Shown: in pieces, positions 10,123 through 62,160 of the stretch | How the letters are laid out: each line of letters begins with the position of its first letter | Numbering within the stretch: the stretch's first letter is position 1 | NCBI RefSeq assembly: GCF_007097145.1 | Contig: NZ_VJVZ01000003.1 | Span: forward strand, 186,001-250,000 | Source of the DNA: Flavobacterium zepuense | GTDB lineage: Bacteria > Bacteroidota > Bacteroidia > Flavobacteriales > Flavobacteriaceae | DNA length: 64,000 nucleotides | Direction: 5' to 3' | Position numbers and translations under genes: made by a program | The notes under the pieces: generated by a model | Databases searched by the model: none | What the model saw: only the letters and a program-made list of their open reading frames with translations | What the model was told of the DNA's origin: nothing

Positions 10123-10785
10123 TTAAAGATACGATTTTACAATGCGCTGCACCGTTTGCCCCAAAAAAGTATCTTCGGTTGGGTCGCCAATAGCGCTAAA
10201 TTTCCATTCGCCATCCCTTTTATATAGCTTGCCCATAATTATAGAGCGTTTGCCAGAATATTGCCCTTCGGCAGAAACGTTATACGATGCAAACTCCGAT
10301 ACTACTTTTGTAGGCGTACCCTCATACATTCTTATTTTAGAATACGGTATTTGAGAAAAATCTTCTTTACCGGCATTGTTTAAAAAGAAGAAAATCTGGG
10401 TAACGTTTGGGTTTACCCTGTTTAGGTCTACCGTAATAATTTCGTTATCAAGGCCGTCATCGCCACCGGTATCGCCGGCAAGGTCGTCGCCGGTGTGTTT
10501 CATGGCACCGTCAGATGTTAGCAGCTTACCTTTTTGCAGGCCAAATTGCTTCAGTACTTCTTCGCGGTACAGCGGCGAATACAAATGATCTGTAACCTGG
10601 TTTTGCCCGTTCACTAATATACAGCTCAGGTCAAGGTCTATGCTTTTTACTTTCTTGCTAAGGCCTAAAAAGCCGCCTTTGGTTTCTATAGCGCCCCAGT
10701 TAACACCTACACAAAAATTGGTAAGGCTTTCGCCCGATGATTTTTTAAGGTCTATTTTCTGACCCTTAGTTAAATTAATTGCCAT
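10123..10785 (-). CDS. TerD-family stress protein (long form, 220 aa)
   Basis: Cytoplasmic calcium-binding beta-sandwich of the TerD family. It opens with MAINLTKGQKIDLKK, has the acidic ligand segments IDLDLSCILV and GDDGLDNEIITVDL, and ends with YKRDGEWKFSAIG. It belongs to the longer sub-type that shares CVGVNWGAIE with the gene at 13474. A roughly 20-residue extra segment (LYSPLYREEVLKQFG region) distinguishes it. Family knowledge: TerD proteins bind Ca2+ and act with TerC and TerB near the membrane in tellurite and chemical stress resistance. Confidence 0.93.
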   Translation of the reverse strand: MAINLTKGQKIDLKKSSGESLTNFCVGVNWGAIETKGGFLGLSKKVKSIDLDLSCILVNGQNQVTDHLYSPLYREEVLKQFGLQKGKLLTSDGAMKHTGDDLAGDTGGDDGLDNEIITVDLNRVNPNVTQIFFFLNNAGKEDFSQIPYSKIRMYEGTPTKVVSEFASYNVSAEGQYSGKRSIIMGKLYKRDGEWKFSAIGDPTEDTFLGQTVQRIVKSYL

Positions 10786-10808
10786 GGTTTGATTGTAGTT
10801 GTTAGTAA

Positions 10809-11363
10809 TTAATTATACTTATTTAAAAAGTCCTGAAGCCCGCCTTTCATGCCAGATCCTACCGCTTCAAACTTCCACTCGTTATTTCTTTTGTACAGCC
10901 TGCCAAACTCTACAGCAGTTTCTATAGAAAAATCTTCGTCAAGCTCATATTTTACAAGTTCAGAATTGTTTACACCATCTACAATACGGATGAACGAATT
11001 GCGTATCTGCCCAAAGTTCTGCCTTCTTTCTGCTGCCTGGTGTATGGTAACTACAAACGTAATTTCGGCTACATCGCTGCTAATTTTAGACAGGTCGATA
11101 ACAATTTTTTCATCATCGCCATCACCTTCGCCGGTAAGGCTGTCTCCGCTGTGGGTTACTGCGCCATCGGGCGTGGTAAGGTTGTTGTAAAATATAAAGT
11201 GGCTGTCGCTAACCAGTTTGCCGTTAGCGCCAAGCACAAATACCGATGCATCAAGGTCAAAACCCTCGCCAGTGTTGCTGCTGTTAGTATCCCAGCCTAA
11301 GCCTACGGTAAATTTTGGCGCGGCAATACTTTGCCTTTGGCCTTTTTCTAAATTTATTGCCAT
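10809..11363 (-). CDS. terD: TerD-family stress protein (short form, 184 aa)
   Basis: Canonical TerD, 184 aa, with KFTVGLGWDTN, FDLDASVFVLG, SGDSLTGEGDGDDEKIVIDL and YKRNNEWKFEAVGSG. The acidic clusters match the two Ca2+ sites known for the family. It is nearly collinear with the gene at 14087. It starts 4 bp after the unknown gene at 11368 and ends 23 bp before the next terD, so it is inside the operon. Confidence 0.94.
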   Translation of the reverse strand: MAINLEKGQRQSIAAPKFTVGLGWDTNSSNTGEGFDLDASVFVLGANGKLVSDSHFIFYNNLTTPDGAVTHSGDSLTGEGDGDDEKIVIDLSKISSDVAEITFVVTIHQAAERRQNFGQIRNSFIRIVDGVNNSELVKYELDEDFSIETAVEFGRLYKRNNEWKFEAVGSGMKGGLQDFLNKYN

Positions 11364-11367
11364 TGTT

Positions 11368-12342
11368 TTATTTTGTGATGTTTATGTTTAACATTGCCCT
11401 TAAAATATTGGTTTGCTCATCTACATTTTGCAGTTCCTCTAAAAAATCTACCCCGGATATCTTTTCCAGGTAGGCAGCCAGCACATTCTCTACATCATTG
11501 GGCATAGATGTTTTAATGGTACTCAGCTTTTCTTTTAGCTGCTCATTCTTTAATTTCATATCGGTAACAATACTCCCTTTGTTCGACAGGTTTTTAGAAA
11601 GGTCGGCAGTTTTAGCAACCTCATCATCTAAAAAATAAAACGCCTTAGTGTTGTTTACAAACACAAAACGGTCGTTACTGTCTACAAATTCGTACACCTC
11701 AGCATATTGGTTGTTGCAGCTTAAACCGCAGGCAAACTTAACCCTGAAATTAAGTATATTAAGCCTGCCCATAAGCTTGCGCTCAATTACGGCGTTGTTG
11801 CTTTCGTAGGTTTTTCGGCTTGCGCCGGAAGTTAACCTCTCAAACTGCTCCGTCCCTGTTTCACGGTAAAATTCCTGCCCCATGCGGGTAGAAAATGCCA
11901 AAACATCGCCCCATGCTATAAGATCCTGTTTGTTATCTGCTAAAAGGCTGTACAACTCTTTTAGTTTAACCGACACCTCCTGCGCATGCCTGCGTGCCTC
12001 CTGGATAAAGTTGCGGCCTTCGGTTTCCTTTTCCAGTTTTTTAATGAGGTCGTCGTTTATGTAGATCTCATCTGAAATCAAAAGATACTGCTGCTCCTTG
12101 GCTTTTTTTAGCTTTTGGAAGAGGTCTATAAGGCTCGTAGTGTATTGTACATGAAAGAGCTCCAGCTTGTTAATGTCGAGGTTTTTGTTGGATGCAAATA
12201 AATTATGGATAACATTAGTGCGGACTAATACCGCAAAAAGGTCTTTATGGTTAAAAAAGTTAGATAACATTTTTACCATCAATACATTTTTCTCGCTGTC
12301 CCTTATTACCCGGGCATATGTTTCGTCCTGCTCTTCTAACAT
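11368..12342 (-). CDS. Unknown ter-operon protein, 324 aa
   Basis: No domain recognised. It is soluble, without signal peptide or membrane helix. Mostly helical, with coiled-coil-like charged stretches (KKLEKETEGRNFIQEARRH and KLKNEQLKEKLSTIK) and a cysteine-containing middle part VKFACGLSCNNQYAEVYEF. It is too long and lacks the acidic motifs for TerB. Tight spacing (20 bp from telA, 4 bp to terD) makes membership of the ter operon certain. By position it may act with TelA, which is also a helical cytoplasmic protein. Confidence 0.85.
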   Translation of the reverse strand: MLEEQDETYARVIRDSEKNVLMVKMLSNFFNHKDLFAVLVRTNVIHNLFASNKNLDINKLELFHVQYTTSLIDLFQKLKKAKEQQYLLISDEIYINDDLIKKLEKETEGRNFIQEARRHAQEVSVKLKELYSLLADNKQDLIAWGDVLAFSTRMGQEFYRETGTEQFERLTSGASRKTYESNNAVIERKLMGRLNILNFRVKFACGLSCNNQYAEVYEFVDSNDRFVFVNNTKAFYFLDDEVAKTADLSKNLSNKGSIVTDMKLKNEQLKEKLSTIKTSMPNDVENVLAAYLEKISGVDFLEELQNVDEQTNILRAMLNINITK

Positions 12343-12362
12343 TTACTATGTAACTCCCTTCC

Positions 12363-13463
12363 CTAACTAATTACGCCTTTTTTAAGTTCGGCTTCAAGGT
12401 TTTGTAAGCCGGCATCAAGCTCGCGCCTGCTCTGAGCACCCTGCTCATGTATTTGTTTAACCTCGGTAAGCGTATCAATAAGCGACCTCGTAGTGGTTTT
12501 TAGCGTATCTAAAGATACCACAGTTTTCTCGTTCTCCTTTGCTACCTCTATACTGTTTGTTTTCAGCATTTCAGCATTTTTCAACAGGATGGTATTGGTG
12601 GTTTCGCTTACTTTTTTCTGAACTTCAATGTGCTGTTTTTGCCTTTGCAGGGCTACTGCAAGGGTTAGCTGGTTTTTCCAAACTGGCATTGTTGTAGTCA
12701 ATATGGTTTGTGCTTTCTCTGCAATAGAAGTGTTGTTGTTTTGCACTACCCTTATTTGCGCTAAAGATTGCAGCAATATAAAGCGAACCACCTTCATATC
12801 AGCCAGCCTTTTATCAAGGCGTGTAACAAAGTTACGCTTATCTGATATTTGGTAATCCTGGTAGTTAGCGGGGTTACCCTCCATAACAGCAAGTTCTTCG
12901 CTAAGTTCTTTAAACTTAAGCTGCCCTGCTATAATGTAACGCTCCAGGTCTTTAATAAGGCCCACATTGCTATCAAACATTGTTTGTAGCGCCGTGTTAT
13001 CTTTAACCGAGTTGATCATACCTGCCTTTACCTTATTGCTTATCCTGTCTACATTGGCAGTGATCTTATCATACTTTTGGAAAAGTTGTTTAACATCAAT
13101 AACCAATTTATTTAGTAACGGTATACCCGACAGGAACCTTTGAAAAGCGTTTTTATTAAGCTCATCTACATCTATGTAGTTAAGCTCGCCCAAAAGCTCG
13201 TTGATAAGGTTACCCACATCGCCGCCCTGCTGTGTTCTTACATTACTAAGAAACGTATCACTTTGCTTGGCAATGTTGTTTTGTATCTCGGCACCGTAGT
13301 TTAATATAGAGTTTACATCCGTTTCAGTCAGCTGGTTAGAAAGCGACTGGTACTGTACCGCATCGGCATCCGATATATTGGCCAGGTTTACATTGCCCTC
13401 TTTATCTATTGGGGCAGTTGTAATGTTAGCCGGAGCAGGAACAGGATTAATATTGTTTTCCAT
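12363..13463 (-). CDS. telA: Toxic-anion resistance protein TelA
   Basis: 366-aa cytoplasmic helical protein of the TelA/KlaA family. After a disordered Pro/Asn-rich start, the conserved core includes FLSGIPLLNKLVIDVKQLF (about residues 110-128), the ADMKVVRFILLQSLAQIRVVQ helix and TTMPVWKNQLTLAVALQRQKQ. TelA is associated with tellurite and other anion or antimicrobial resistance and regularly accompanies TerD. It sits between the two terD pairs, 10 bp from the upstream terD. Confidence 0.94.
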   Translation of the reverse strand: MENNINPVPAPANITTAPIDKEGNVNLANISDADAVQYQSLSNQLTETDVNSILNYGAEIQNNIAKQSDTFLSNVRTQQGGDVGNLINELLGELNYIDVDELNKNAFQRFLSGIPLLNKLVIDVKQLFQKYDKITANVDRISNKVKAGMINSVKDNTALQTMFDSNVGLIKDLERYIIAGQLKFKELSEELAVMEGNPANYQDYQISDKRNFVTRLDKRLADMKVVRFILLQSLAQIRVVQNNNTSIAEKAQTILTTTMPVWKNQLTLAVALQRQKQHIEVQKKVSETTNTILLKNAEMLKTNSIEVAKENEKTVVSLDTLKTTTRSLIDTLTEVKQIHEQGAQSRRELDAGLQNLEAELKKGVIS

Positions 13464-13473
13464 AATGTATTAT

Positions 13474-14082
13474 TTATAGGAAGTTTTGCTGAATTGTTTT
13501 GATGGTCTCCTCCAGTTTCCTGTCAGATGTTGGGTTACCGATGGCGTTAAATTTCCATTCGCCGTTCTTTTTGTAAAATACGCCAAGCACCATAGATACT
13601 GCGCCTTCAAAAGCTTTTTCGTTGGCAATATCGTATTTTGCAAATACCTCGCTCACGCGGGTTGGTGTACCTTCGTAAATCCTGATGGAAGCAAACGGAA
13701 TATCTTTAAAATCCTGCCCGCGGAAGCTGTTTATAAAAAACGCCACGTAATTGGTTTTAGGGTTAAGCTTAGAAAAATCTACCGTTATAACCTCGTTATC
13801 CAGTCCGTCATCACCGTTTAAGTCGCCCGTAAGGTCGTCTCCGCTGTGGCGGATAGCCTGGTCGTTACTTTTTAACTGGCGAAAGCTTACTGTATCTATA
13901 TTAACTTTATCTTCATCATAAATAGCGCAGCTGGCATCAAGGTCTACCGGCTCTTTTTTAGTGCCAAAAAATCCTTTTTTCTCTATTGCGCCCCAGTTAA
14001 CACCTACGCAAATATTTAATAATTTAGCTCCGCTGCTTTTTTCCAGGCTTATGCGTTGCCCTTTTTGTAAATTAATTGCCAT
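13474..14082 (-). CDS. TerD-family stress protein (long form, 202 aa)
   Basis: TerD paralog of the longer type: MAINLQKGQRISLEKSSG, CVGVNWGAIEKKG, VDLDASCAIYDED, HSGDDLTGDLNGDDGLDNE and YKKNGEWKFNAIG. The Asp clusters expected for Ca2+ binding are intact. It follows the short terD by 4 bp, giving the same short-long order as the pair at 10.1-11.4 kb. Confidence 0.93.
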   Translation of the reverse strand: MAINLQKGQRISLEKSSGAKLLNICVGVNWGAIEKKGFFGTKKEPVDLDASCAIYDEDKVNIDTVSFRQLKSNDQAIRHSGDDLTGDLNGDDGLDNEVITVDFSKLNPKTNYVAFFINSFRGQDFKDIPFASIRIYEGTPTRVSEVFAKYDIANEKAFEGAVSMVLGVFYKKNGEWKFNAIGNPTSDRKLEETIKTIQQNFL

Positions 14083-14086
14083 AATG

Positions 14087-14641
14087 TTAGTTGTATTTGT
14101 TTAAGTATTCCTGTAAACCACCGCGCTGGCCTGCGCCAACGGCTTCAAATTTCCACTCGTTGTTTCTTTTGTATATCCTGCCAAACTCTACAGCGGTTTC
14201 TATGCTAAAGTCCTCTTCAAGCTCGTACTTTACAAGTTCGGTATTGTTTGCGGCATCTATAATGCGCACAAAAGAGTTGCGCACCTGGCCAAAGTTTTGT
14301 TTGCGGGCATCGGCATCGTGTATGGTTACCACAATACAAAGCTCTGTAACCCTTGGGTCTATTTTGCTAAGGTCTACGTGTATTTGCTCATCATCGCCAT
14401 CGCCATCGCCGGTAAGGTTATCGCCGGTGTGCTCTACAGCTTCATCGGGCGATTTTGTGTTATTATAGAATACAAAAAATTCATCGGCAAGGAGCTTTTT
14501 GTTCTCTCCCATAATAAATACCGATGCATCAAGGTCGAACGCAGTTCCTGTTGAAGATGCATTTACATCCCAACCAAGGCCAATGGTAAATTTTGGCGCA
14601 TTAAGCGTTTCGCGCTGACCCTTCTGTAAATTGATAGCCAT
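14087..14641 (-). CDS. terD: TerD-family stress protein (short form, 184 aa)
   Basis: Canonical TerD with KFTIGLGWDVN, FDLDASVFIMG, HTGDNLTGDGDGDDEQIHVDL and YKRNNEWKFEAVGAG. It is the first TerD in the operon. Its first 41 bp overlap the end of the phosphoribosyltransferase gene in another frame, implying translational coupling. The start is fixed by the conserved MAINLQKGQ. Confidence 0.94.
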   Translation of the reverse strand: MAINLQKGQRETLNAPKFTIGLGWDVNASSTGTAFDLDASVFIMGENKKLLADEFFVFYNNTKSPDEAVEHTGDNLTGDGDGDDEQIHVDLSKIDPRVTELCIVVTIHDADARKQNFGQVRNSFVRIIDAANNTELVKYELEEDFSIETAVEFGRIYKRNNEWKFEAVGAGQRGGLQEYLNKYN

Positions 14642-46305: not shown

Positions 46306-47025
46306 ATGACACAAAAAATACTACTATTACTACTCTGTCCATTCCTGCTTATAAGCTGTCAGGACGAGCTAAAATACGATTCTACCATACGCATAGCCTA
46401 TCAGGGGCGTGTAACCGATGCTGCCGGAAACCCTATAGCCAACCTGCCCGTGGGCGTTTACATCTCTAAAGATGAAGATGCCAATGGCCTTAACTATCTT
46501 TTTGCTTATGACCATGATATGATAAGTTATACTACTACCGATGGCAATGGCGACTATAAAATGTTTTTTCCGCAGCCTAAAAACCAGGATAATATTGTAT
46601 TGTTTATCAATCAGGATATACCGGGAATAGCTGTAAATGAGTCGTATTCTAAATTGGTTATCACTAATTTACGAACCGAAAACCTTACTGATTATAAAAT
46701 TGATTTTGGTGTTACACAACTTTATGAGGTTGCCAACAGTACTACACTGCAAATTGATTTTACAAACACAAGCGGCCAATCGTTAACCAAGCTTAATACC
46801 ATAGGTAAAGTAAGCGAAAGCGTTATAGATTACAACTTTAACCTCCCCCCTGTTGATGGCGTAAATGCATATATAATGACCAATTATAATGTGGGTAAAG
46901 ATCAGACCGTTACATTAAAATACCAAACACGAAGCGGCAACGAGGCAGGAGTTCAGGTAGTTAGCAACCATGAGGTACAAATACCCATTGGCACAGAGCC
47001 TGTTATATACCAATTAAACTATTAA
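46306..47025 (+). CDS. Lipoprotein with CarboxypepD-like domain (module copy 1)
   Basis: 239 aa. Lipoprotein signal with Cys at LLISCQDEL (residue 18). A carboxypeptidase-regulatory-like beta-sandwich follows: GRVTDAAGNPIANLPVGVYI, and YTTTDGNGDYKMFFPQPKNQDNIVLFIN. A second beta-rich domain closes the protein. The barrel gene follows by 3 bp, and the pair repeats next door at 47657-49032. Probably a surface or periplasmic partner of that barrel; no function known. Confidence 0.85.
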   Translation: MTQKILLLLLCPFLLISCQDELKYDSTIRIAYQGRVTDAAGNPIANLPVGVYISKDEDANGLNYLFAYDHDMISYTTTDGNGDYKMFFPQPKNQDNIVLFINQDIPGIAVNESYSKLVITNLRTENLTDYKIDFGVTQLYEVANSTTLQIDFTNTSGQSLTKLNTIGKVSESVIDYNFNLPPVDGVNAYIMTNYNVGKDQTVTLKYQTRSGNEAGVQVVSNHEVQIPIGTEPVIYQLNY

Positions 47026-47028
47026 GCC

Positions 47029-47643
47029 ATGAAATTATATACAATTTTACTGGCTTTGTGCCTACAATTTGGCTATGCCCAAACTACCGATAGCATTGCC
47101 AAACCTGTTGATAAATTTGCGTTTAACACCTTCCTAAAAGTATATTATACCTTTCCCGGCGCGAGTGGCGATAATGTACTCAGCAAGGGCAATGAGGGCA
47201 AATATGGCTTTGGTTTTGAAATGAACCTTATTAGTTATCGTAAATTTTACCTGGCCGGCAGTTATGAATTTTCAGGATATGACGTTACCAATGCAGCTCT
47301 TGCAGGAAATATAGAACATACCAATGTTAACAACTATTATGCACGGCTGTTATACCAAATTCCGATAGATAATAGGCGGTTTGCTGTGAGTCCGCTTATA
47401 ACCGGCGGTGCCGTGATGATCCATCAAAAAACAGCAGGTAAAAGCTACGGCAAGCAACGTGGGGCGGCTTTTAGTGTAGGGACCGATATAGATTTTAAAC
47501 TTACCGAAGCTTTAGGCTTATTTGGCAGGGCACGCTACGGTTTCCTGTATCCTGATGTTACAGCAAATGCAAAGGATGAAAAGTTTTTTAGCAACCTGAA
47601 CCAGTTAAATTTTTCTTTGGGATTAAAGGTAGGTATCGATTAA
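47029..47643 (+). CDS. Outer-membrane beta-barrel protein (module copy 1)
   Basis: 204 aa with a signal peptide ending FGYAQ. Alternating aromatic/polar strands and a C-terminal strand ending LNFSLGLKVGID point to an 8-10 strand barrel. Characteristic motif: YYTFPGASGDNVLSKGNEGKYGFG, and SYEFSGYDVTNAALAGNIEHTNV. Both recur in the gene at 48403. Its partner lipoprotein is immediately upstream. Confidence 0.82.
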   Translation: MKLYTILLALCLQFGYAQTTDSIAKPVDKFAFNTFLKVYYTFPGASGDNVLSKGNEGKYGFGFEMNLISYRKFYLAGSYEFSGYDVTNAALAGNIEHTNVNNYYARLLYQIPIDNRRFAVSPLITGGAVMIHQKTAGKSYGKQRGAAFSVGTDIDFKLTEALGLFGRARYGFLYPDVTANAKDEKFFSNLNQLNFSLGLKVGID

Positions 47644-47656
47644 AAATTATAAGGCT

Positions 47657-48400
47657 ATGATGAAAAAATTATTTTACTTAATTTTAGTATTCTTGTTATT
47701 AACAGGTTGTGACGACCGCCTTGAATACAGCGGTACTAAAAAAATAGTGTTTGAAGGCCGCATAGTAGACGAAAACAATCTGCCGCTTAACAATATAGAT
47801 GTCAGCGTTTATGTATCTAAAGAAGGCTCCGGCGGAGAATCTTCATTTATTTTTGGAGCACATTCTGATAGCGACGAAGATATTATAACGTACACAACTA
47901 CAGACAGTAATGGTTATTACCGCATGATATTCCCTATGCCAAGGGATCAGGATAATATTGCTTTGTTTATTAATCGGGAAGTAGAAACAAGTACACATTA
48001 CAATTCAAATTATTCTAATTCAATTATAACTGGTATCAAGCCCGAAAACATAACCGATTTTGACCTTAATTTTGGCGAGCAGAGAATCTTTAACCTTGAT
48101 AACCAGACAGAACTGACGGTTACCGTCAACAATATCCCTTTGTATTATTACGGTTATATTGATATTGAATTAGCCGGATTGGTAAACGATGCAATATATG
48201 ATTACAACCTCCCTGCGCATTTTAATTATGATACTACAGGGCCATATGATGATACATCGGCACATTATGTTTTTAAGGTAGCTAAAAATCAGGATATTGT
48301 ATTTACCTACAACAATGGTATTGTAAATGGCATATCGTCTTACGCGCAAACTACCATCCACATTGGTAATGAACCTGTTAACTATATTATAGAATATTAG
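47657..48400 (+). CDS. Lipoprotein with CarboxypepD-like domain (module copy 2)
   Basis: 247-aa paralog of the gene at 46306: lipoprotein Cys at LLTGCDDRL (residue 19), GRIVDENNLPLNNIDVSVYV, YTTTDSNGYYRMIFPMPRDQDNIALFIN and the same closing IHIGNEPVNYII pattern. Central and C-terminal parts have diverged. It lies 13 bp after the first barrel gene and 2 bp before the second. The four genes behave as one operon. Confidence 0.85.
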   Translation: MMKKLFYLILVFLLLTGCDDRLEYSGTKKIVFEGRIVDENNLPLNNIDVSVYVSKEGSGGESSFIFGAHSDSDEDIITYTTTDSNGYYRMIFPMPRDQDNIALFINREVETSTHYNSNYSNSIITGIKPENITDFDLNFGEQRIFNLDNQTELTVTVNNIPLYYYGYIDIELAGLVNDAIYDYNLPAHFNYDTTGPYDDTSAHYVFKVAKNQDIVFTYNNGIVNGISSYAQTTIHIGNEPVNYIIEY

Positions 48401-48402
48401 GC

Positions 48403-49032
48403 ATGAAAAAAGCAGTATTTATTATAGTAGCCCTGTTTGTATTTGCAAATTTACAGGCTCAGGAAGAAGAAGAAGAACGGGTATATGACAGTACGTATAT
48501 TGATAAGGTTAAGTATCAGCAGTTTGACGAAAGCTTTAGGGTATATTATATTTTTCCCGGAGCCGTGGGAGATAATGTGCTGGCAAAAGCTAATAAAGCT
48601 AAATTAGGGTTCGGGATGTCACTCAGCCTCATCACTGTCTACAATTTTTACCTTAATGCAGGTTTAGAATTTTCGCAATATGATGTAACCGATGCATCGC
48701 TGGCAGGCAATATAGACCATACCAATATTACCAATTATTTTGGCGAAATAATGTATAAGATACCGGTTTACAAGAAGATAACGGTAAATCCTAAAATAGG
48801 TATCGGTTATGCCGATGTGCGCCAAAAAACAGGATCTAAAAAATATGGTACGCAAAGCGGTACCTCTTATAACGCCGGTTTTAATGTAGATTATGCTGTT
48901 ACAAAGTCGTTTATGGTGTTTGCAGGACTCAACTATTCACTATTAAAACCCGAGACCGAAACAAAAAGTGAATACAAATCATTTTACGGCACACTGCACC
49001 AGCTCAATATAGTGGTAGGTATCAAACTTTAG
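48403..49032 (+). CDS. Outer-membrane beta-barrel protein (module copy 2)
   Basis: 209-aa paralog of the gene at 47029 with a signal peptide ending LQAQ followed by an acidic EEEEER run. Shared motifs: YYIFPGAVGDNVLAKANKAKLGFG and FSQYDVTDASLAGNIDHTNIT. Its stop codon overlaps that of the convergent phosphoesterase by 3-4 bp. Confidence 0.82.
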   Translation: MKKAVFIIVALFVFANLQAQEEEEERVYDSTYIDKVKYQQFDESFRVYYIFPGAVGDNVLAKANKAKLGFGMSLSLITVYNFYLNAGLEFSQYDVTDASLAGNIDHTNITNYFGEIMYKIPVYKKITVNPKIGIGYADVRQKTGSKKYGTQSGTSYNAGFNVDYAVTKSFMVFAGLNYSLLKPETETKSEYKSFYGTLHQLNIVVGIKL

Positions 49033-50434: not shown

Positions 50435-52204
50435 ATGAAAGCCACTACAAACACTCCACATAAAACCTCGTCACTAACAAAACTGATGCGGTTTGCAAAA
50501 GCCTACCGCGCTCGTTTTGCGTGGGTTATAATATTCTCTATAGCATTATCTATATTTGCTGCGGCACGCCCCTACCTGCTAAAACAGTCGGTAGACATGT
50601 ACCTTATAAAAAAAGACCACTCAGGCCTGTTATATTACATTGGCCTTATGGGTATTATGCTCATTTTAGAGGTTGCAGCGCAATTTTATTTTGTGTACTG
50701 GGCCAACTGGCTCGGGCAGGATATTGTAAAAGATATCCGCGAAAAATTGTTTGCACACATCAGCAGTTTCAGGATGAAATTCTTTGATAACGAAGCAGTT
50801 GGCCGTCTTGTAACCCGTACCGTATTTGATATTGAGAGCATCTCTAAGATATTCAGCCAGGGATTATTTATGATAATAAGCGACATGCTAAAAATGCTGG
50901 TTATCCTTATCGTTATGTTTGTAATGAACTGGAAACTAACCATTATCGTAATGCTTGCCATGCCTTTACTGGTAATTGCCACGCGCATCTTCCAAAAGAA
51001 AATGAAAGGCGCTTTTGAGGAGGTACGTACCCAGGTTGCCAACCTTAATACCTTTGTGCAGGAGCGCGTTACAGGCATGAAGATCGTTCAGCTCTTTAAC
51101 CGTGAGGATATTGAGTACGAAAAGTTTAAGGTAATCAACAAAAAACACAACGATGCCTGGCAAAAAAACATCCTGTACAACTCCATCTTCTTCCCCATTG
51201 CCGATATAATCTCCTCTCTTACAATGGGTTTCGTAATCTGGTATGCGGGTATCAGCATCTTAAACCTCGACCCTATAACCAGGCCCGGCGACATGTTTGC
51301 CTATATCATGTTCATTCCCATGCTATTCAACCCGCTAAGGCAGATAGCCGATAAATTCAACGAAATGCAAATGGGTATCGTAGCGTCTGACAGGGTTTTT
51401 GAGCTGCTGGATATGCAGGGTAACACCCAGAAGAACGGCACTACCGAGGCATGGCACTTTAAGGGAGAGCTTGACTTTAAAGATGTTAGGTTCAGCTATA
51501 TAGAAAACGAAGAAGTTATAAAAGGCATATCGCTTAAAATTGATGCCGGCCAAACCATAGCCATTGTAGGCGCTACGGGAGCCGGTAAAAGCACGATAAT
51601 TAACCTGTTAAACCGCTTTTACGAGATCAACAGCGGCAGTGTAACAATAGACGGCACTAATATAGACGATTTTAGCCTCCACAGCCTTCGCAGGCAGATA
51701 GCCATTGTACTGCAAGATGTGTTCTTATTTGCCGATACTATCCTGAATAACATCACTTTAAATGATGCTGCCATTACACGCGAAGACGTAGTAAAGGCCT
51801 CTAAAGCCATTGGCGTACACGACTTTATCATGAGCCTGCCGGGCGGTTATGACTATAACGTTAAGGAACGTGGCGTAATGCTGTCATCAGGGCAGCGCCA
51901 GTTAATAGCGTTTTTAAGGGCGTATGTAAGCAACCCAAGCATCCTTATTTTAGATGAAGCAACCTCATCCATAGATACTTACAGTGAAGAACTGATACGC
52001 AACGCCACCGATGCCGTTACCAAAAACAGGACCTCAATAGTTATTGCCCACAGGCTGGCTACCATTGTAAACGCTGATAAGATCATTGTGATGGACAAAG
52101 GTAAAATTGTAGAAGAAGGCACCCACTATGAGCTTATAAACCGCGAACAGGGGTACTACAAAAATTTATACTACTCGCAGTTTGCAGTGGAGACTGAAAA
52201 GTAG
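50435..52204 (+). CDS. MsbA-like ABC exporter, fused permease-ATPase
   Basis: 589 aa. Six membrane helices (about residues 20-310), then the ATPase with Walker A GATGAGKST (near residue 382), signature MLSSGQRQLIAFLRA (LSSGQ instead of LSGGQ) and Walker B ILILDEATSSID. Half-transporter acting as a homodimer or heterodimer, likely exporting a lipid or hydrophobic compound. A single full set of motifs, so homodimeric use is possible. Substrate unknown. Confidence 0.93.
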   Translation: MKATTNTPHKTSSLTKLMRFAKAYRARFAWVIIFSIALSIFAAARPYLLKQSVDMYLIKKDHSGLLYYIGLMGIMLILEVAAQFYFVYWANWLGQDIVKDIREKLFAHISSFRMKFFDNEAVGRLVTRTVFDIESISKIFSQGLFMIISDMLKMLVILIVMFVMNWKLTIIVMLAMPLLVIATRIFQKKMKGAFEEVRTQVANLNTFVQERVTGMKIVQLFNREDIEYEKFKVINKKHNDAWQKNILYNSIFFPIADIISSLTMGFVIWYAGISILNLDPITRPGDMFAYIMFIPMLFNPLRQIADKFNEMQMGIVASDRVFELLDMQGNTQKNGTTEAWHFKGELDFKDVRFSYIENEEVIKGISLKIDAGQTIAIVGATGAGKSTIINLLNRFYEINSGSVTIDGTNIDDFSLHSLRRQIAIVLQDVFLFADTILNNITLNDAAITREDVVKASKAIGVHDFIMSLPGGYDYNVKERGVMLSSGQRQLIAFLRAYVSNPSILILDEATSSIDTYSEELIRNATDAVTKNRTSIVIAHRLATIVNADKIIVMDKGKIVEEGTHYELINREQGYYKNLYYSQFAVETEK

Positions 52205-52223
52205 TTTTTCGACCCAAAAAGGG

Positions 52224-52329
52224 CTTAATATTTCACTTTTGGATTTTAAGTTGCTTTAAACAGGCCTATTTTACGACCATATTTTACAGGAATAAACTTA
52301 CAAATAGCCTAATATTTCACTTTTGGATT
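52224..52329 (+). repeat. Paired AT-rich motifs 84 bp apart (copy B)
   Basis: CTTAATATTTCACTTTTGG at 52224 and a near copy (CCTAATATTTCACTTTTGG) at 52308, start-to-start 84 bp. The interval contains ACAGGAATAAAC. It starts 20 bp after the exporter stop codon. Same design and spacing as the pair at 30928-31029. Confidence 0.75.
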
Positions 52330-52388
52330 CTGAGATTGGTATTTTAGAATTTAGATTGTCGGAATTTTAGACTAAGTCCGATAAATCA

Positions 52389-52426
52389 AAAAAAGAGGTT
52401 TCGTTTTAAACAGAGACCTCTTTTTT
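52389..52426. terminator. Terminator between the exporter and the AT-rich cassette
   Basis: Stem AAAAAAGAGGTTTC / GAGACCTCTTTTTT, one mismatch, 10-base loop; A- and T-runs on both sides allow use in both directions. Confidence 0.85.
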
Positions 52427-52486
52427 GACAAACTATCGTATATTGATAAACTATGGTTTGATTACTATTTAATAAGACTACTGGAT

Positions 52487-53482
52487 TTAGGATGGCAAAT
52501 TTAAGTATCGTAATAGGAATTCGATATGCTCATTTAAATTATGAGTACTTAAACAATTTTTTTGTTCAGCTAACCTTCTATGACTCTCAAGTGTTCTAAA
52601 ATAGCCCTTTAAATTTTCAAGGTGACTTCCATAAGAGAATGCTATATCATCACAGGTATTCAACATAAAATATCCATCTTTACTTGAACCAATCCTATTA
52701 TTTCTCTTTAGAGGAGTAATAAGCCAATTTTTTATATTGCTGTCAGAATATTCGTCTTGGGATATTCCCATTTGACGTAGCTTTCTGATAATTATTTCTG
52801 TTTTCATAGGATTTCTATATGAACTTGCAGATTCATCAAGGATAGCAAGGATAGTATTTCTCAAACCCAATAAATCACGGACAAATCCATGAGTAGTATC
52901 ACTTCTATGTCCTTTAGCTAAAATCCATATTTTCTTATCACTTATTTCATTACTCTCATTAGAATCGTCATCTATAAAATCTACAACTTCATCCCTATTA
53001 GTTGAAAATAAGTGGAGTACTTTATTATCTGTAAAAATATTATTTTCAGATTCCCATGGATTTATAAACTCATTACACTTTGAAAAATAATTGTATTTAA
53101 CTGATAATATAGCCGAATGGACTGTCCTATCTATCATCTTTAAAAGTTCCAACGATGTTCTATCATAATACATTCCCAATTCTCTTCTTATTTTTTCATA
53201 TAAAAAACCTTGCAGGTTATCGAATTCTTCATTAATACTTTCATCTTCTAAATCGTCAAGACTCTCGATAACAAAGCCTTCTGTTTGATGATATATTCTA
53301 TCTGTCAGTATTAAAGCCGTATCATTAAATATTGCTTGACTATCATCAACAATTACGTTAGATATGTCAAACAAAGTATTCAAGTGTATCTGAAAATTAT
53401 TCCTATATCTCTTAATACGGTAATCATTTGTCAAGTGCACATCACTAAATGTATTTCTTGCTTCTAAAATAATATTTTCCAT
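52487..53482 (-). CDS. Unknown protein with C-terminal winged-helix-like region, 331 aa
   Basis: No family recognised. Soluble, no signal peptide. The N-terminal half is helical and acidic (VIESLDDLEDESINEEFDNL). Residues 226-275 look like a winged helix: three helices (MKTEIIIRKLRQMG, SDSNIKNWLITPLKRN) and a strand GYFML. Second gene of a two-gene unit, starting 2 bp after the methyltransferase-like gene. Clearly more AT-rich than its neighbours. Probably acquired by transfer; a role in defence or DNA/RNA binding is speculation. Confidence 0.72.
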   Translation of the reverse strand: MENIILEARNTFSDVHLTNDYRIKRYRNNFQIHLNTLFDISNVIVDDSQAIFNDTALILTDRIYHQTEGFVIESLDDLEDESINEEFDNLQGFLYEKIRRELGMYYDRTSLELLKMIDRTVHSAILSVKYNYFSKCNEFINPWESENNIFTDNKVLHLFSTNRDEVVDFIDDDSNESNEISDKKIWILAKGHRSDTTHGFVRDLLGLRNTILAILDESASSYRNPMKTEIIIRKLRQMGISQDEYSDSNIKNWLITPLKRNNRIGSSKDGYFMLNTCDDIAFSYGSHLENLKGYFRTLESHRRLAEQKNCLSTHNLNEHIEFLLRYLNLPS

Positions 53483-53484
53483 AA

Positions 53485-54075
53485 TTAAGCGACTTTAGTG
53501 ATTTTGTACATTTGTGTAGGTTTAATTTCCACATTAATATCGCATAATGTAAATACGTGATTCTGTCTATATTCATGATTTTCATCTAGAACAATTGGCT
53601 GAGATATCTGAAATTCGTAGGAGAGATTATTATGAGCAATTAATTCTTCGTAGAAAGTTACAGCATTTTTATGTTTTACCCATCTATTTTTTACACCACC
53701 AATCATTAATATTTCACCTCCGACATCTAAAAGCTGTCCAGCTCTTGAAAGAAACTGTTTTGTTTCCCCATATCCCCCTACTCCAAAATCATAGGGATTA
53801 CAGAAAATTAATTTGGTAAATGTCCTGCCTAAATCCTCAGAATTAATAAAATCGTACATAGAATCTAGGTAATGACATTGAGAATTTTCACTATATTCTT
53901 CAAGTTCTCTAAAATGCGGTAAATTGTTATTAACGGCATCAGTCAAATAACATGCCGGCAGAAACTTTTTACCAAAGCAGCCCCGACCAGCCCCAAACTC
54001 TATAGAAAACACCTGATCATTTGGAAAATTTACAAATTCTACAATTTCGTTATTAAATATATCTAATATAGCCAT
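53485..54075 (-). CDS. SAM-dependent methyltransferase-like protein
   Basis: 196-aa Rossmann-fold protein. Motif I SIEFGAGRGCFGKKFLP (E26-F-G-A-G-R-G) with YLTDA as the following acidic strand. A later FCNPYDFG (N93-P94-Y95) is in the place of the catalytic NPPY/DPPY motif but lacks one Pro. Then GQLLDVGGEILMIGG. Target unknown. The ATG at 54075 is chosen because a TATCTTTG box lies 22 bp before it. AT-rich; first gene of a two-gene cassette. Confidence 0.7.
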   Translation of the reverse strand: MAILDIFNNEIVEFVNFPNDQVFSIEFGAGRGCFGKKFLPACYLTDAVNNNLPHFRELEEYSENSQCHYLDSMYDFINSEDLGRTFTKLIFCNPYDFGVGGYGETKQFLSRAGQLLDVGGEILMIGGVKNRWVKHKNAVTFYEELIAHNNLSYEFQISQPIVLDENHEYRQNHVFTLCDINVEIKPTQMYKITKVA

Positions 54076-54096
54076 ATATATTTGCTTAGGGGTTAA

Positions 54097-54104
54097 CAAA
54101 GATA
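54097..54104 (-). promoter_or_regulatory. -7 promoter box of the AT-rich cassette
   Basis: Minus-strand TATCTTTG, exact TAnnTTTG match, 22 bp before the methyltransferase-like ATG at 54075. Confidence 0.65.
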
Positions 54105-54215
54105 TTAAAATTAAATTATTATAATTTATCAACGTGCATGTGCCGAAAACATTTCCCTAATTCTAAATAAATCCTTATTTTCGTACACTCAAATATTAAA
54201 GCAAATTATATACTA

Positions 54216-55604
54216 ATGAAATACGATATTATTGTTTTAGGCAGTGGCCCGGGCGGTTATGTAACAGCCATAAGGGCTTCTCAATTAGGTTTTAAAGTAG
54301 CCATTGTAGAAAAAGAAAGCCTTGGCGGCATATGCCTTAACTGGGGTTGCATCCCTACTAAAGCGCTTTTAAAAAGTGCCCAGGTTTTTGATTACCTTAA
54401 ACATGCATCTGATTACGGATTAACAATAAACGAGTTTGATAAGGATTTTGGCGCTGTAATTGCCCGTAGCCGTGGCGTTGCCGAGGGTATGAGCAAAGGT
54501 GTTCAGTTTCTTATGAAAAAAAATAAGATCGAGGTTATTTTTGGTACCGGTAAAGTTAAGCCGGGCAAAAAAATGGACGTAACCGATAAAGACGGTAACG
54601 TAACCGAACTTAGCGCCGATAACATTATTATTGCTACAGGTGCACGCTCACGCGAGCTGCCTAACCTGCCACAGGACGGTAAAAAAGTAATTGGCTACCG
54701 CCAGGCTATGGTGTTGCCGGAACAGCCTAAAAGTATGATCGTTGTAGGCTCAGGCGCTATTGGCGTAGAGTTTGCACATTTTTACAACTCTATGGGTACG
54801 CAGGTAACTATTGTTGAGTTTATGCCTAACGTGGTACCGGTAGAAGACGAAGATATCTCGAAACAATTTGAGCGTTCGCTTAAAAAATCGGGTATTACGG
54901 TTATGACCAATGCTTCGGTTGAAAAAGTTGACACCAGCGGCAATGGCGTTAAAGCTACCGTTAAAACGGCTAAAGGCGAAGAGATCATCGAAGCTGATAT
55001 CGTTCTTTCTGCTGTGGGTATCAAATCGAACATCGAAAATATTGGATTGGAAGAAGTGGGTATCGCTACCGACAGGGATAAGATACTTGTAAATTCGTAC
55101 TACCAAACGAACATACCGGGTTACTACGCTATTGGCGATGTGGTTCCGGGCCAGGCGCTTGCACACGTTGCTTCGGCCGAGGGTATCCTTTGTGTAGAAA
55201 AACTTGCAGGCCTTCATGTAGAGCCGCTTGATTACGGTAACATACCGGGCTGTACGTATGCTACTCCGGAAATTGCTTCGGTAGGCCTTACTGAGAAAGC
55301 TGCTAAAGAAAAAGGTTACGAAATTAAAGTGGGTAAATTCCCTTTCAGTGCATCGGGTAAAGCAAAAGCATCGGGTAATTCTGATGGTTTTGTAAAAGTT
55401 ATCTTTGATGCTAAATACGGCGAATGGTTAGGCTGCCACATGATTGGCGCCGGCGTTACCGATATGATTGCCGAGGCTGTTGTTGCCCGCAGGTTAGAGA
55501 CTACCGGCCACGAGATCATTAAGTCGGTTCACCCTCACCCTACCATGAGCGAGGCCATTATGGAAGCTGCTGCTGCCGCTTATGATGAAGTGATTCACAT
55601 CTAA
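54216..55604 (+). CDS. lpdA: Dihydrolipoyl dehydrogenase (E3)
   Basis: 462-aa flavoprotein that reoxidises dihydrolipoamide of 2-oxoacid dehydrogenase complexes. FAD motif GSGPGGYVTA, redox disulfide Cys40/Cys45 in GGICLNWGCIPTKA, NAD motif VVGSGAIGVEF, and the C-terminal His-Glu dyad in HPHPTMSEAIMEAA. It can serve the E1 gene at the left edge. A terminator follows. Confidence 0.97.
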   Translation: MKYDIIVLGSGPGGYVTAIRASQLGFKVAIVEKESLGGICLNWGCIPTKALLKSAQVFDYLKHASDYGLTINEFDKDFGAVIARSRGVAEGMSKGVQFLMKKNKIEVIFGTGKVKPGKKMDVTDKDGNVTELSADNIIIATGARSRELPNLPQDGKKVIGYRQAMVLPEQPKSMIVVGSGAIGVEFAHFYNSMGTQVTIVEFMPNVVPVEDEDISKQFERSLKKSGITVMTNASVEKVDTSGNGVKATVKTAKGEEIIEADIVLSAVGIKSNIENIGLEEVGIATDRDKILVNSYYQTNIPGYYAIGDVVPGQALAHVASAEGILCVEKLAGLHVEPLDYGNIPGCTYATPEIASVGLTEKAAKEKGYEIKVGKFPFSASGKAKASGNSDGFVKVIFDAKYGEWLGCHMIGAGVTDMIAEAVVARRLETTGHEIIKSVHPHPTMSEAIMEAAAAAYDEVIHI

Positions 55605-61320: not shown

Positions 61321-62010
61321 TTAACTTTTAAAAGTAATTTTCTGTATTATTAAATCTTTCATAGTGATTATTTCACCATAAAATGATGTGTCATTTATGA
61401 TTTCAGTTATTTCTTTCACTAAAACATTAATTCTTTCTTGTGAAAAATTAAATTCATATCTATTAGGATTACCTTTTGCCTTATAATCATTTAGAATTAT
61501 GTCTCTATATTTTAAAGATATATTATTCAGATGATTTAAAAAAACTTTATTTTTATTAATGATATCAGCATATAAAACTTGCAATTCTTTTTCAATAAAA
61601 TTTATATAATTAATTGAATACCCATGCTTTAATCTGAATTGAGAATTAATTTGATAAAATGACATACTATCCTGATAACCTGAACATTTTGCATTCAAAC
61701 AAAAACAATCATTAAAGTTTACATCTACACCAATATCTTTTAAAAAAATTGTTTGAAATACACATCCCGAAATTGTACTGATGAGACAAAATGAAGTCAA
61801 TTGTATATCATTAACCATGTCTGTAAATTTTACTGAAGGAATAATTTTAACACCACCACCCCACTTGAATGTAGAAATTGCATTAGAATGAAAATTTGCA
61901 AAAAAACTTTCGAACTCATAGTTATTATAATATTCAATTTGAATGATATCAATACATAAATGACCGAACTCATGCCATAGTAATCTTTGTAAATCCGTCT
62001 GAAAATCCAT
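61321..62010 (-). CDS. Stand-alone M41-like (FtsH-protease-type) metallopeptidase-like protein
   Basis: 229 aa, no AAA+ domain and no signal peptide. HEFGH at residues 13-17 gives the zinc ligands and Glu. About 60 residues later TISGCVFQTIF parallels the GGxxAE region of FtsH, and CSGYQDSMSFYQI places Asp114 like the third zinc ligand (TGxxND) of M41 peptidases. The AT-rich composition contrasts with recG beside it. The ATG at 62010 puts HEFGH very near the N-terminus. Substrate and activity unproven. Confidence 0.6.
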   Translation of the reverse strand: MDFQTDLQRLLWHEFGHLCIDIIQIEYYNNYEFESFFANFHSNAISTFKWGGGVKIIPSVKFTDMVNDIQLTSFCLISTISGCVFQTIFLKDIGVDVNFNDCFCLNAKCSGYQDSMSFYQINSQFRLKHGYSINYINFIEKELQVLYADIINKNKVFLNHLNNISLKYRDIILNDYKAKGNPNRYEFNFSQERINVLVKEITEIINDTSFYGEIITMKDLIIQKITFKS

Positions 62011-62160
62011 TGCAATTTTTCGGATAAAAATAATCAATTATAATATATTATTATTTAGGCTACATTCCTAAATGTTAAAGCCATGCGTTCTAAAAATTGG
62101 ATTTTTTTGGACTTAGCAACCATTATCAAAATCCATATTTAAAACTTTTCAGTAATACCT

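Follow-up and report, generated by a model that had tools for sequence, protein, structure and literature searches.

An AT-rich accessory gene pair at the exporter–lpdA junction of Flavobacterium zepuense and its diverged counterpart near conjugation and defence-type genes

The window, a 64,000-nt stretch of a Flavobacterium zepuense contig that was analysed as a whole, carries two adjacent minus-strand genes, here called A and B, which are located between the gene for an ABC exporter and lpdA (Table 1). The host genome has a size of 4.76 Mb. The original prediction of two genes spaced by 2 bp is confirmed by the open reading frames (ORFs), and Pfam matches support the exporter and lpdA as the flanking genes. 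The right-flank gene codes for a pyridine nucleotide-disulphide oxidoreductase, which we read as lpdA; 59 of 61 genomes from the genus have an lpdA match, the window's own genome being counted.

Table 1. Features at the exporter–lpdA junction of the window and of the related pair in genome G1000 (stretches L182 and L184)
Feature	Position	Strand	Description
ABC exporter, left flank	50435-52204	+	PF00664, PF00005
Variable segment (approximate)	52205-54146		from local alignment against congener G331 (gap of 192 bp)
Hairpin with T-run	52389-52426		inverted repeat, arms 52389-52407 and 52408-52426, 84% complementary
Gene B	52487-53482	-	ORF, 331 aa; unassigned to any known family; conservation highest in the C-terminal ~100 residues
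Gene A	53485-54075	-	ORF, 196 aa from ATG (215 aa from upstream TTG); class I SAM-methyltransferase-like
TATCTTTG, upstream of A	54097-54104	-	Bacteroidota-type -7-like element; present as read, but such matches are not rare by chance
lpdA, right flank	54216-55604	+	PF07992, PF02852
A' (G1000)	L182 2462 to about 3049		39% identical to A
A'B' pair (G1000)	L184 9344-10979		

The GC content, predicted to be visibly lower in the cassette, is 30.5% over positions 52487-54103, whereas 1.6-kb segments of the window average 40.5% (sd 3.2). Equally low values are found in 8 of 624 such segments, five of which overlap the A-B span and three of which are located at 60.6-60.9 kb. GC3 is 0.24 for A and 0.22 for B, against 0.36-0.52 in 13 comparison genes picked from the same window; two further AT-rich ORFs of the comparison list have values of 0.16 and 0.28. 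Another AT-rich gene (61321-62037, minus strand, 238 aa, GC 24%, GC3 16%), which adjoins a gene that is recG-like by eye, has no match in Pfam or PADLOC and is possibly a second acquired gene.

The pair had also been credited with its own promoter and a flanking terminator. The element TATCTTTG is present upstream of A, at a distance of 21 bases from its ATG. As promoter evidence for A it is weak, since TAnnTTTG is common by chance (it occurs in 115 of 2000 shuffled 60-nt stretches, with 103 copies on both strands of the window) and since the upstream TTG is 25 nt off. As to the terminator, a hairpin with a T-run is located between the convergent genes for the exporter and B and is possibly a terminator common to both, but it is absent from the output of the terminator scan. 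The region between the exporter gene and B also contains a 33-nt direct repeat (52218-52250 and 52302-52334, 85% identical).

The junction was surveyed in 52 of the 58 other lpdA-carrying congeners. The exporter gene is located upstream of lpdA in 41 of these; in 11 it was not found within the stretch examined. The gap between exporter and lpdA is up to 330 bp in 22 of the 41 genomes, 331-700 bp in four, and more than 700 bp in 15. ORFs of at least 80 aa occur in all 15 gaps of more than 700 bp and in none of the four gaps of 331-700 bp; the gap ORFs are, by eye, Fic-like, PAP2-like, HNH/AP2-like, TetR-like, and ubiquitin-like. The original prediction had named presence or absence at this locus as a check, and none of the exporter–lpdA loci of the congeners has a match to A or B at an E-value of 0.05. 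In G331, the congener whose lpdA matches best (91%), the gap measures 192 bp. Likeness to this gap resumes near position 54147 on the right side and amounts to only ~15 bp near position 52208 on the left. No tRNA was found anywhere in the window. In two congener gaps, ubiquitin-like genes with a signal peptide adjoin an HNH/AP2-like gene (all by eye); there is one such gene in locus L123 (173-463) and there are three in locus L126 (175-468, 807-1097, and 1411-1704).

A and B have no match in Pfam, PADLOC (PADLOC-DB 2.0.0), or NCBIfam, and searches with pieces of both proteins gave nothing in Pfam or NCBIfam. PHROGs returned marginal matches only (best E-value 0.015). On the tests made, no known family claims A or B. 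Plasmids gave no match even at an E-value of 10, and phages gave just four records for A and two for B, all with E-values of 0.3 or worse. No relative was found in viral contigs by a method that requires exact short peptides, so that distant relatives are missed; a seed pattern from the B wing had one match in viral contigs, which was judged to be due to chance. A credible phage, plasmid, or viral-contig relative was thus not found. No title describing such a pair was encountered among the literature titles seen, which is weak evidence of absence from the literature because the pair has no name.

The searches among genomes covered sets from the genus, family, order, and phylum, which overlap. 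At an E-value of 0.001, A finds itself alone in 61 genus genomes, and itself plus one short match within a 1025-aa frame, judged to be due to chance, in 299 family genomes. At an E-value of 0.1, six weak matches are added in 196 order genomes and 20 in 385 phylum genomes. B finds only itself in 395 phylum genomes at an E-value of 0.001; in 397 family genomes, weak matches (E-values 0.003-0.1) occur in 23 genomes in addition to itself. The alignments of these weak matches are short or scattered, and we judged the matches to be due to chance. The exception among those of A (phylum set) is a generic methyltransferase in three genomes of one genus, two of which aligned in register with A. A scan for FGAGRG and CNPYDFG, the two motifs originally noticed in A, gave 51 loci (49 stretches from the genome collection and two from viral contigs), 23 of which have both motifs within one open frame. 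None of these 23 frames was found by phmmer with A, and the best tblastn E-value of A in the loci was 0.11. Of eight two-motif frames inspected by eye, seven resemble selenophosphate synthetase and one resembles chitinase.

A clear relative was detected in 101 genomes from another order (the order of genome G453), where B has one clear match, in genome G1000, which belongs to the same class; a second match, in genome G1016, is weak (E-value 0.009). A profile search found G1000 alone in 60 genomes of its genus and nothing in 43 genomes of another family. G1000 carries both genes, again in the same order and spaced by 1 bp. B' is 38% identical to residues 1-322 of B (E-value 1.9e-70). The overall identity is 39% for both A/A' and B/B', and is 47% for the C-terminal stretch of B, compared to 39% overall. 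The A' stretch used here begins right behind an in-frame ATG (L182, about 3049). Likeness between A and A' starts at residue 5 of A, which fits the ATG at 54075 as the probable start of A but does not prove it. Neither A' nor B' has a family in PADLOC-DB 2.0.0 or a plasmid or phage match at an E-value of 1; Pfam gave two matches for A' that are far below the cut-offs (LRR_5 and a haemocyanin domain).

The A'B' pair has a GC content of 0.366, compared to 0.432 for the rest of L182. It is arranged head to head with a gene for an AlkB-like 2OG-Fe(II) oxygenase (PF13532), which also matches CARF_2OG from PADLOC (E-value 3e-12). Past this gene are genes for TraM, TraJ, and TraG, as known from conjugative elements of the Bacteroides type. 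On the opposite side of A'B' are, in this order, genes for a GNAT protein, an uncharacterised protein, an Lrp/AsnC regulator, a small uncharacterised protein, and TmtA (1517 aa; domains Sacsin, HATPase, and NO VEIN), which we take to be Tiamat. TmtA is located 3.2 kb from A'B' (PADLOC E-value 2.4e-288) and is the only clear defence gene among seven G1000 proteins run on PADLOC. A helicase, a TaqI-like adenine DNA methyltransferase, and a dNTP/dGTP triphosphohydrolase are encoded at about 9-19 kb from A'B'. In the same outer region, genes were assigned by eye to an AAA-type ATPase, a PurA-like protein, a SLATT-like protein, and an IS21-like pair; the SLATT-like gene is adjoined by a GGDEF-type gene, which was assigned by test. 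Altogether, the surroundings of A'B' look like a defence island. The gene row at L186 6108-12208 of G1000 comprises SLATT-like and GGDEF-type genes, followed by PfkB/nucleoside-transferase-like, PurA-like, and dGTPase genes (dGTPase and GGDEF assigned by test, the remainder by eye), and possibly represents nucleotide-based defence cassettes.

The two-gene observation holds. Two hallmarks of acquired units, a deviant base composition and a gene content that varies while the junction itself is conserved, are found together at the window locus, and GC is below that of the surroundings for the pair in both genomes. Because the junction is short in many congeners and holds other ORFs in others, we regard the pair as an acquired accessory. 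The predicted acquired accessory unit is further supported by the lack of a clear homologue in all genomes drawn from the genus, family, order, and phylum except the window's own, and by the position of A'B' beside conjugation genes, and we consider it highly likely that A and B form an accessory two-gene unit. Two orders of one class share the pair as a conserved unit. The recurrence in a distant relative, near a gene for virus defence and genes for DNA transfer, gives it the look of a rare mobile unit. The pair is probably mobile, and its patchy spread is most simply attributed to horizontal transfer.

A methyltransferase fold had been proposed for A on the basis of FGAGRG and CNPYDFG. Both motifs occur in A, but neither is kept in A', which has FAAGKA and CNPIMIG at these positions. 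Motif I, which is of the G-x-G-x-G type in A, is thus degenerate in A'; TaqI tolerates a motif I without strict G-x-G-x-G. The residues identical in A and A' include E26, F27, A29, G30, F34, G35, K36, D46, C67-H68-Y69-L70-D71, G83-R84-T85-F86, C92-N93-P94, and E104-T105-K106, and both proteins have the C-terminal sequence H167-x-Y169-R170-Q171-N172-H173. Strand 2 is followed by an acidic residue and strand 4 by N/D-P (D46, N93, and P94 being identical), with the strands in A read from the motifs and not from a structure; the AlphaFold model of A from its single sequence is unusable (pLDDT 34.5).

A pattern that combines motif I, N-P, and L-L-x-x-G-G has no match in 300,000 shuffled versions of A; of 1147 stop-to-stop frames (150 aa or longer) in the DNA examined, it matches only A and one frame that is HemK/PrmC-like by eye. 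The pattern is post hoc because its first version missed A and was then loosened. For a methyltransferase core profile, 17 methyltransferase loci of the window's own genome were considered; nine were dropped as they are devoid of the motif string, and the other eight were used. Against this core, the two-row A/A' profile scored 28.9 (best of 200 column shuffles 19.1). Confidence in the alignment is limited to 19 columns; when alignment over the full length is forced, motif I falls in register. The natural controls all score lower (exporter pairs 20.0, three congener gene pairs up to 14.9, B pair 13.2, A reversed 12.6, lpdA pairs up to 11.5) and agree with a methyltransferase reading of A. When A is used alone, 98 of 1000 shuffles score as high (hmmsearch) and at least 7 of 200 score higher (hhalign). 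The proposed fold is thus moderately supported by the pattern and the two-row profile, but the motifs originally cited for it are not those conserved. Since pattern and two-row profile are positive while confidence extends over 19 columns and A alone is not significant, we consider a class I SAM-methyltransferase fold for A likely but not proven. For catalysis, A is a candidate only, because two motif I glycines and the aromatic residue after N-P are lost in A'.

Two specific assignments of A were rejected. A housekeeping methyltransferase should have clear homologues, which were not found in the genomes sampled from the genus, family, order, and phylum. Amino-methylating DNA methyltransferases have the catalytic motif (D/N/S)-P-P-(Y/F/W); A has NPYD and A' has NPIM, and a canonical enzyme of this type was dismissed.

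The winged-helix-like character attributed to B did not find confirmation by any profile. Its C-terminus has no helix-turn-helix or winged-helix match in Pfam and no meaningful sequence match in PDB, and the single-sequence AlphaFold model is unusable (pLDDT 33.6). By eye, the C-terminal ~100 residues of B may be winged-helix-like.

The original prediction also considered the pair as a potential defence unit. In the window, ten proteins encoded at 46.3-62.0 kb (A and B excluded) include no clear defence gene according to PADLOC. Two have PADLOC matches, namely the exporter (mad3, E-value 2e-27, and four weaker matches) and a class-V aminotransferase (SspA and DndA, E-values about 1e-116); we take these to be cross-hits, the former of an ABC ATPase and the latter of a cysteine desulfurase with a housekeeping role. 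The region 46306-49032 carries, by eye, two tandem copies of a gene pair (lipoprotein-like and outer-membrane-barrel-like), with a Pfam match (OMP_b-brl) only in the last of the four genes. At 10123-14641 there is a TerD/TerZ-like gene row (by eye) beside HAD-like and phosphoribosyltransferase-like genes. The defence proposal is no more than suggestive and rests on the relative, where A'B' is near TmtA and defence-type genes, whereas the window neighbours contribute only cross-hits. With one relative, the defence context has a sample size of one.

We consider defence as the leading single explanation, although at a likelihood that stays slightly short of even. In this model, A would be a methyltransferase-like enzyme of class I that binds SAM. 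Its partner B, with a winged-helix-like domain at the C-terminus, would bind nucleic acids and detect some feature of foreign DNA or RNA that enters the cell or replicates there. Using SAM, A would act on that feature or on a host target, so that A-B would operate as an anti-phage or anti-mobile-element unit. An accessory operon with such a role is the best explanation overall, which we hold with the same tentativeness. The more specific reading, an undescribed two-gene anti-phage system of Bacteroidota in which a small methyltransferase-like protein whose SAM loop is relaxed cooperates with a winged-helix-like partner, is appreciably more doubtful. Under this reading, the head-to-head arrangement with the AlkB-like oxygenase gene in G1000 would hint at a methyl mark that may be written and erased.

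The main rival is cargo of a conjugative element that has no defence role, with A modifying host RNA, protein, or a small molecule, B being a regulator or partner, and the location of A'B' reflecting hitchhiking. The four unrelated or uncharacterised genes between TmtA and A'B', including those for the Lrp/AsnC regulator and the GNAT protein, argue against defence and, together with the AlkB-like oxygenase gene, give A'B' the mixed neighbourhood expected of cargo, as does the lack of a clear defence gene among the ten window proteins run on PADLOC. However, a PADLOC defence gene and defence-type genes are found on the other side of A'B', and we consider plain cargo possible but unlikely. A restriction-modification-like unit, with A as the DNA methylase and B as a nuclease for unmethylated DNA, would fit the arrangement of a methyltransferase-like gene and, immediately after it, a gene for a partner that may bind DNA, but it is improbable given the missing catalytic motif, the 196-aa length of A that probably leaves little room for a target-recognition domain, and the lack of a Pfam, PADLOC, or NCBIfam family for B. 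Equally improbable is a self-maintaining pair, toxin-antitoxin-like or otherwise, in which one gene does harm that the other neutralises: tight linkage and conjugation genes nearby in G1000 speak for it, but A and B have no Pfam or NCBIfam family of any kind, and an antitoxin of 331 aa would be long.

New immune systems are still found among rare accessory pairs outside all profile libraries. The second, diverged copy near defence and conjugation genes makes A-B a concrete two-gene candidate to test, with named conserved residues. The pair also illustrates that motif reading from a single sequence can mislead, as the hallmark motifs of A differ from the conserved ones.

Among known systems, class I SAM-dependent methyltransferases (Methyltransf_25/11-like) can be aligned with A in register at the motif I region, the acidic residues that follow it, N-P, and the LLxxGG strand with its helix. 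They differ in that A has no Pfam or NCBIfam match, that A' does not have all motif I glycines, and that A and A' carry a C-terminal H-x-Y-R-Q-N-H of their own. TaqI/Eco57I-type adenine DNA methyltransferases share N-P after the presumed strand 4, but A is much smaller and is devoid of NPPY, and the large enzyme of this type in G1000 is encoded by a separate gene. TmtA shares the G1000 stretch with A'B', yet it is a separate, single gene.
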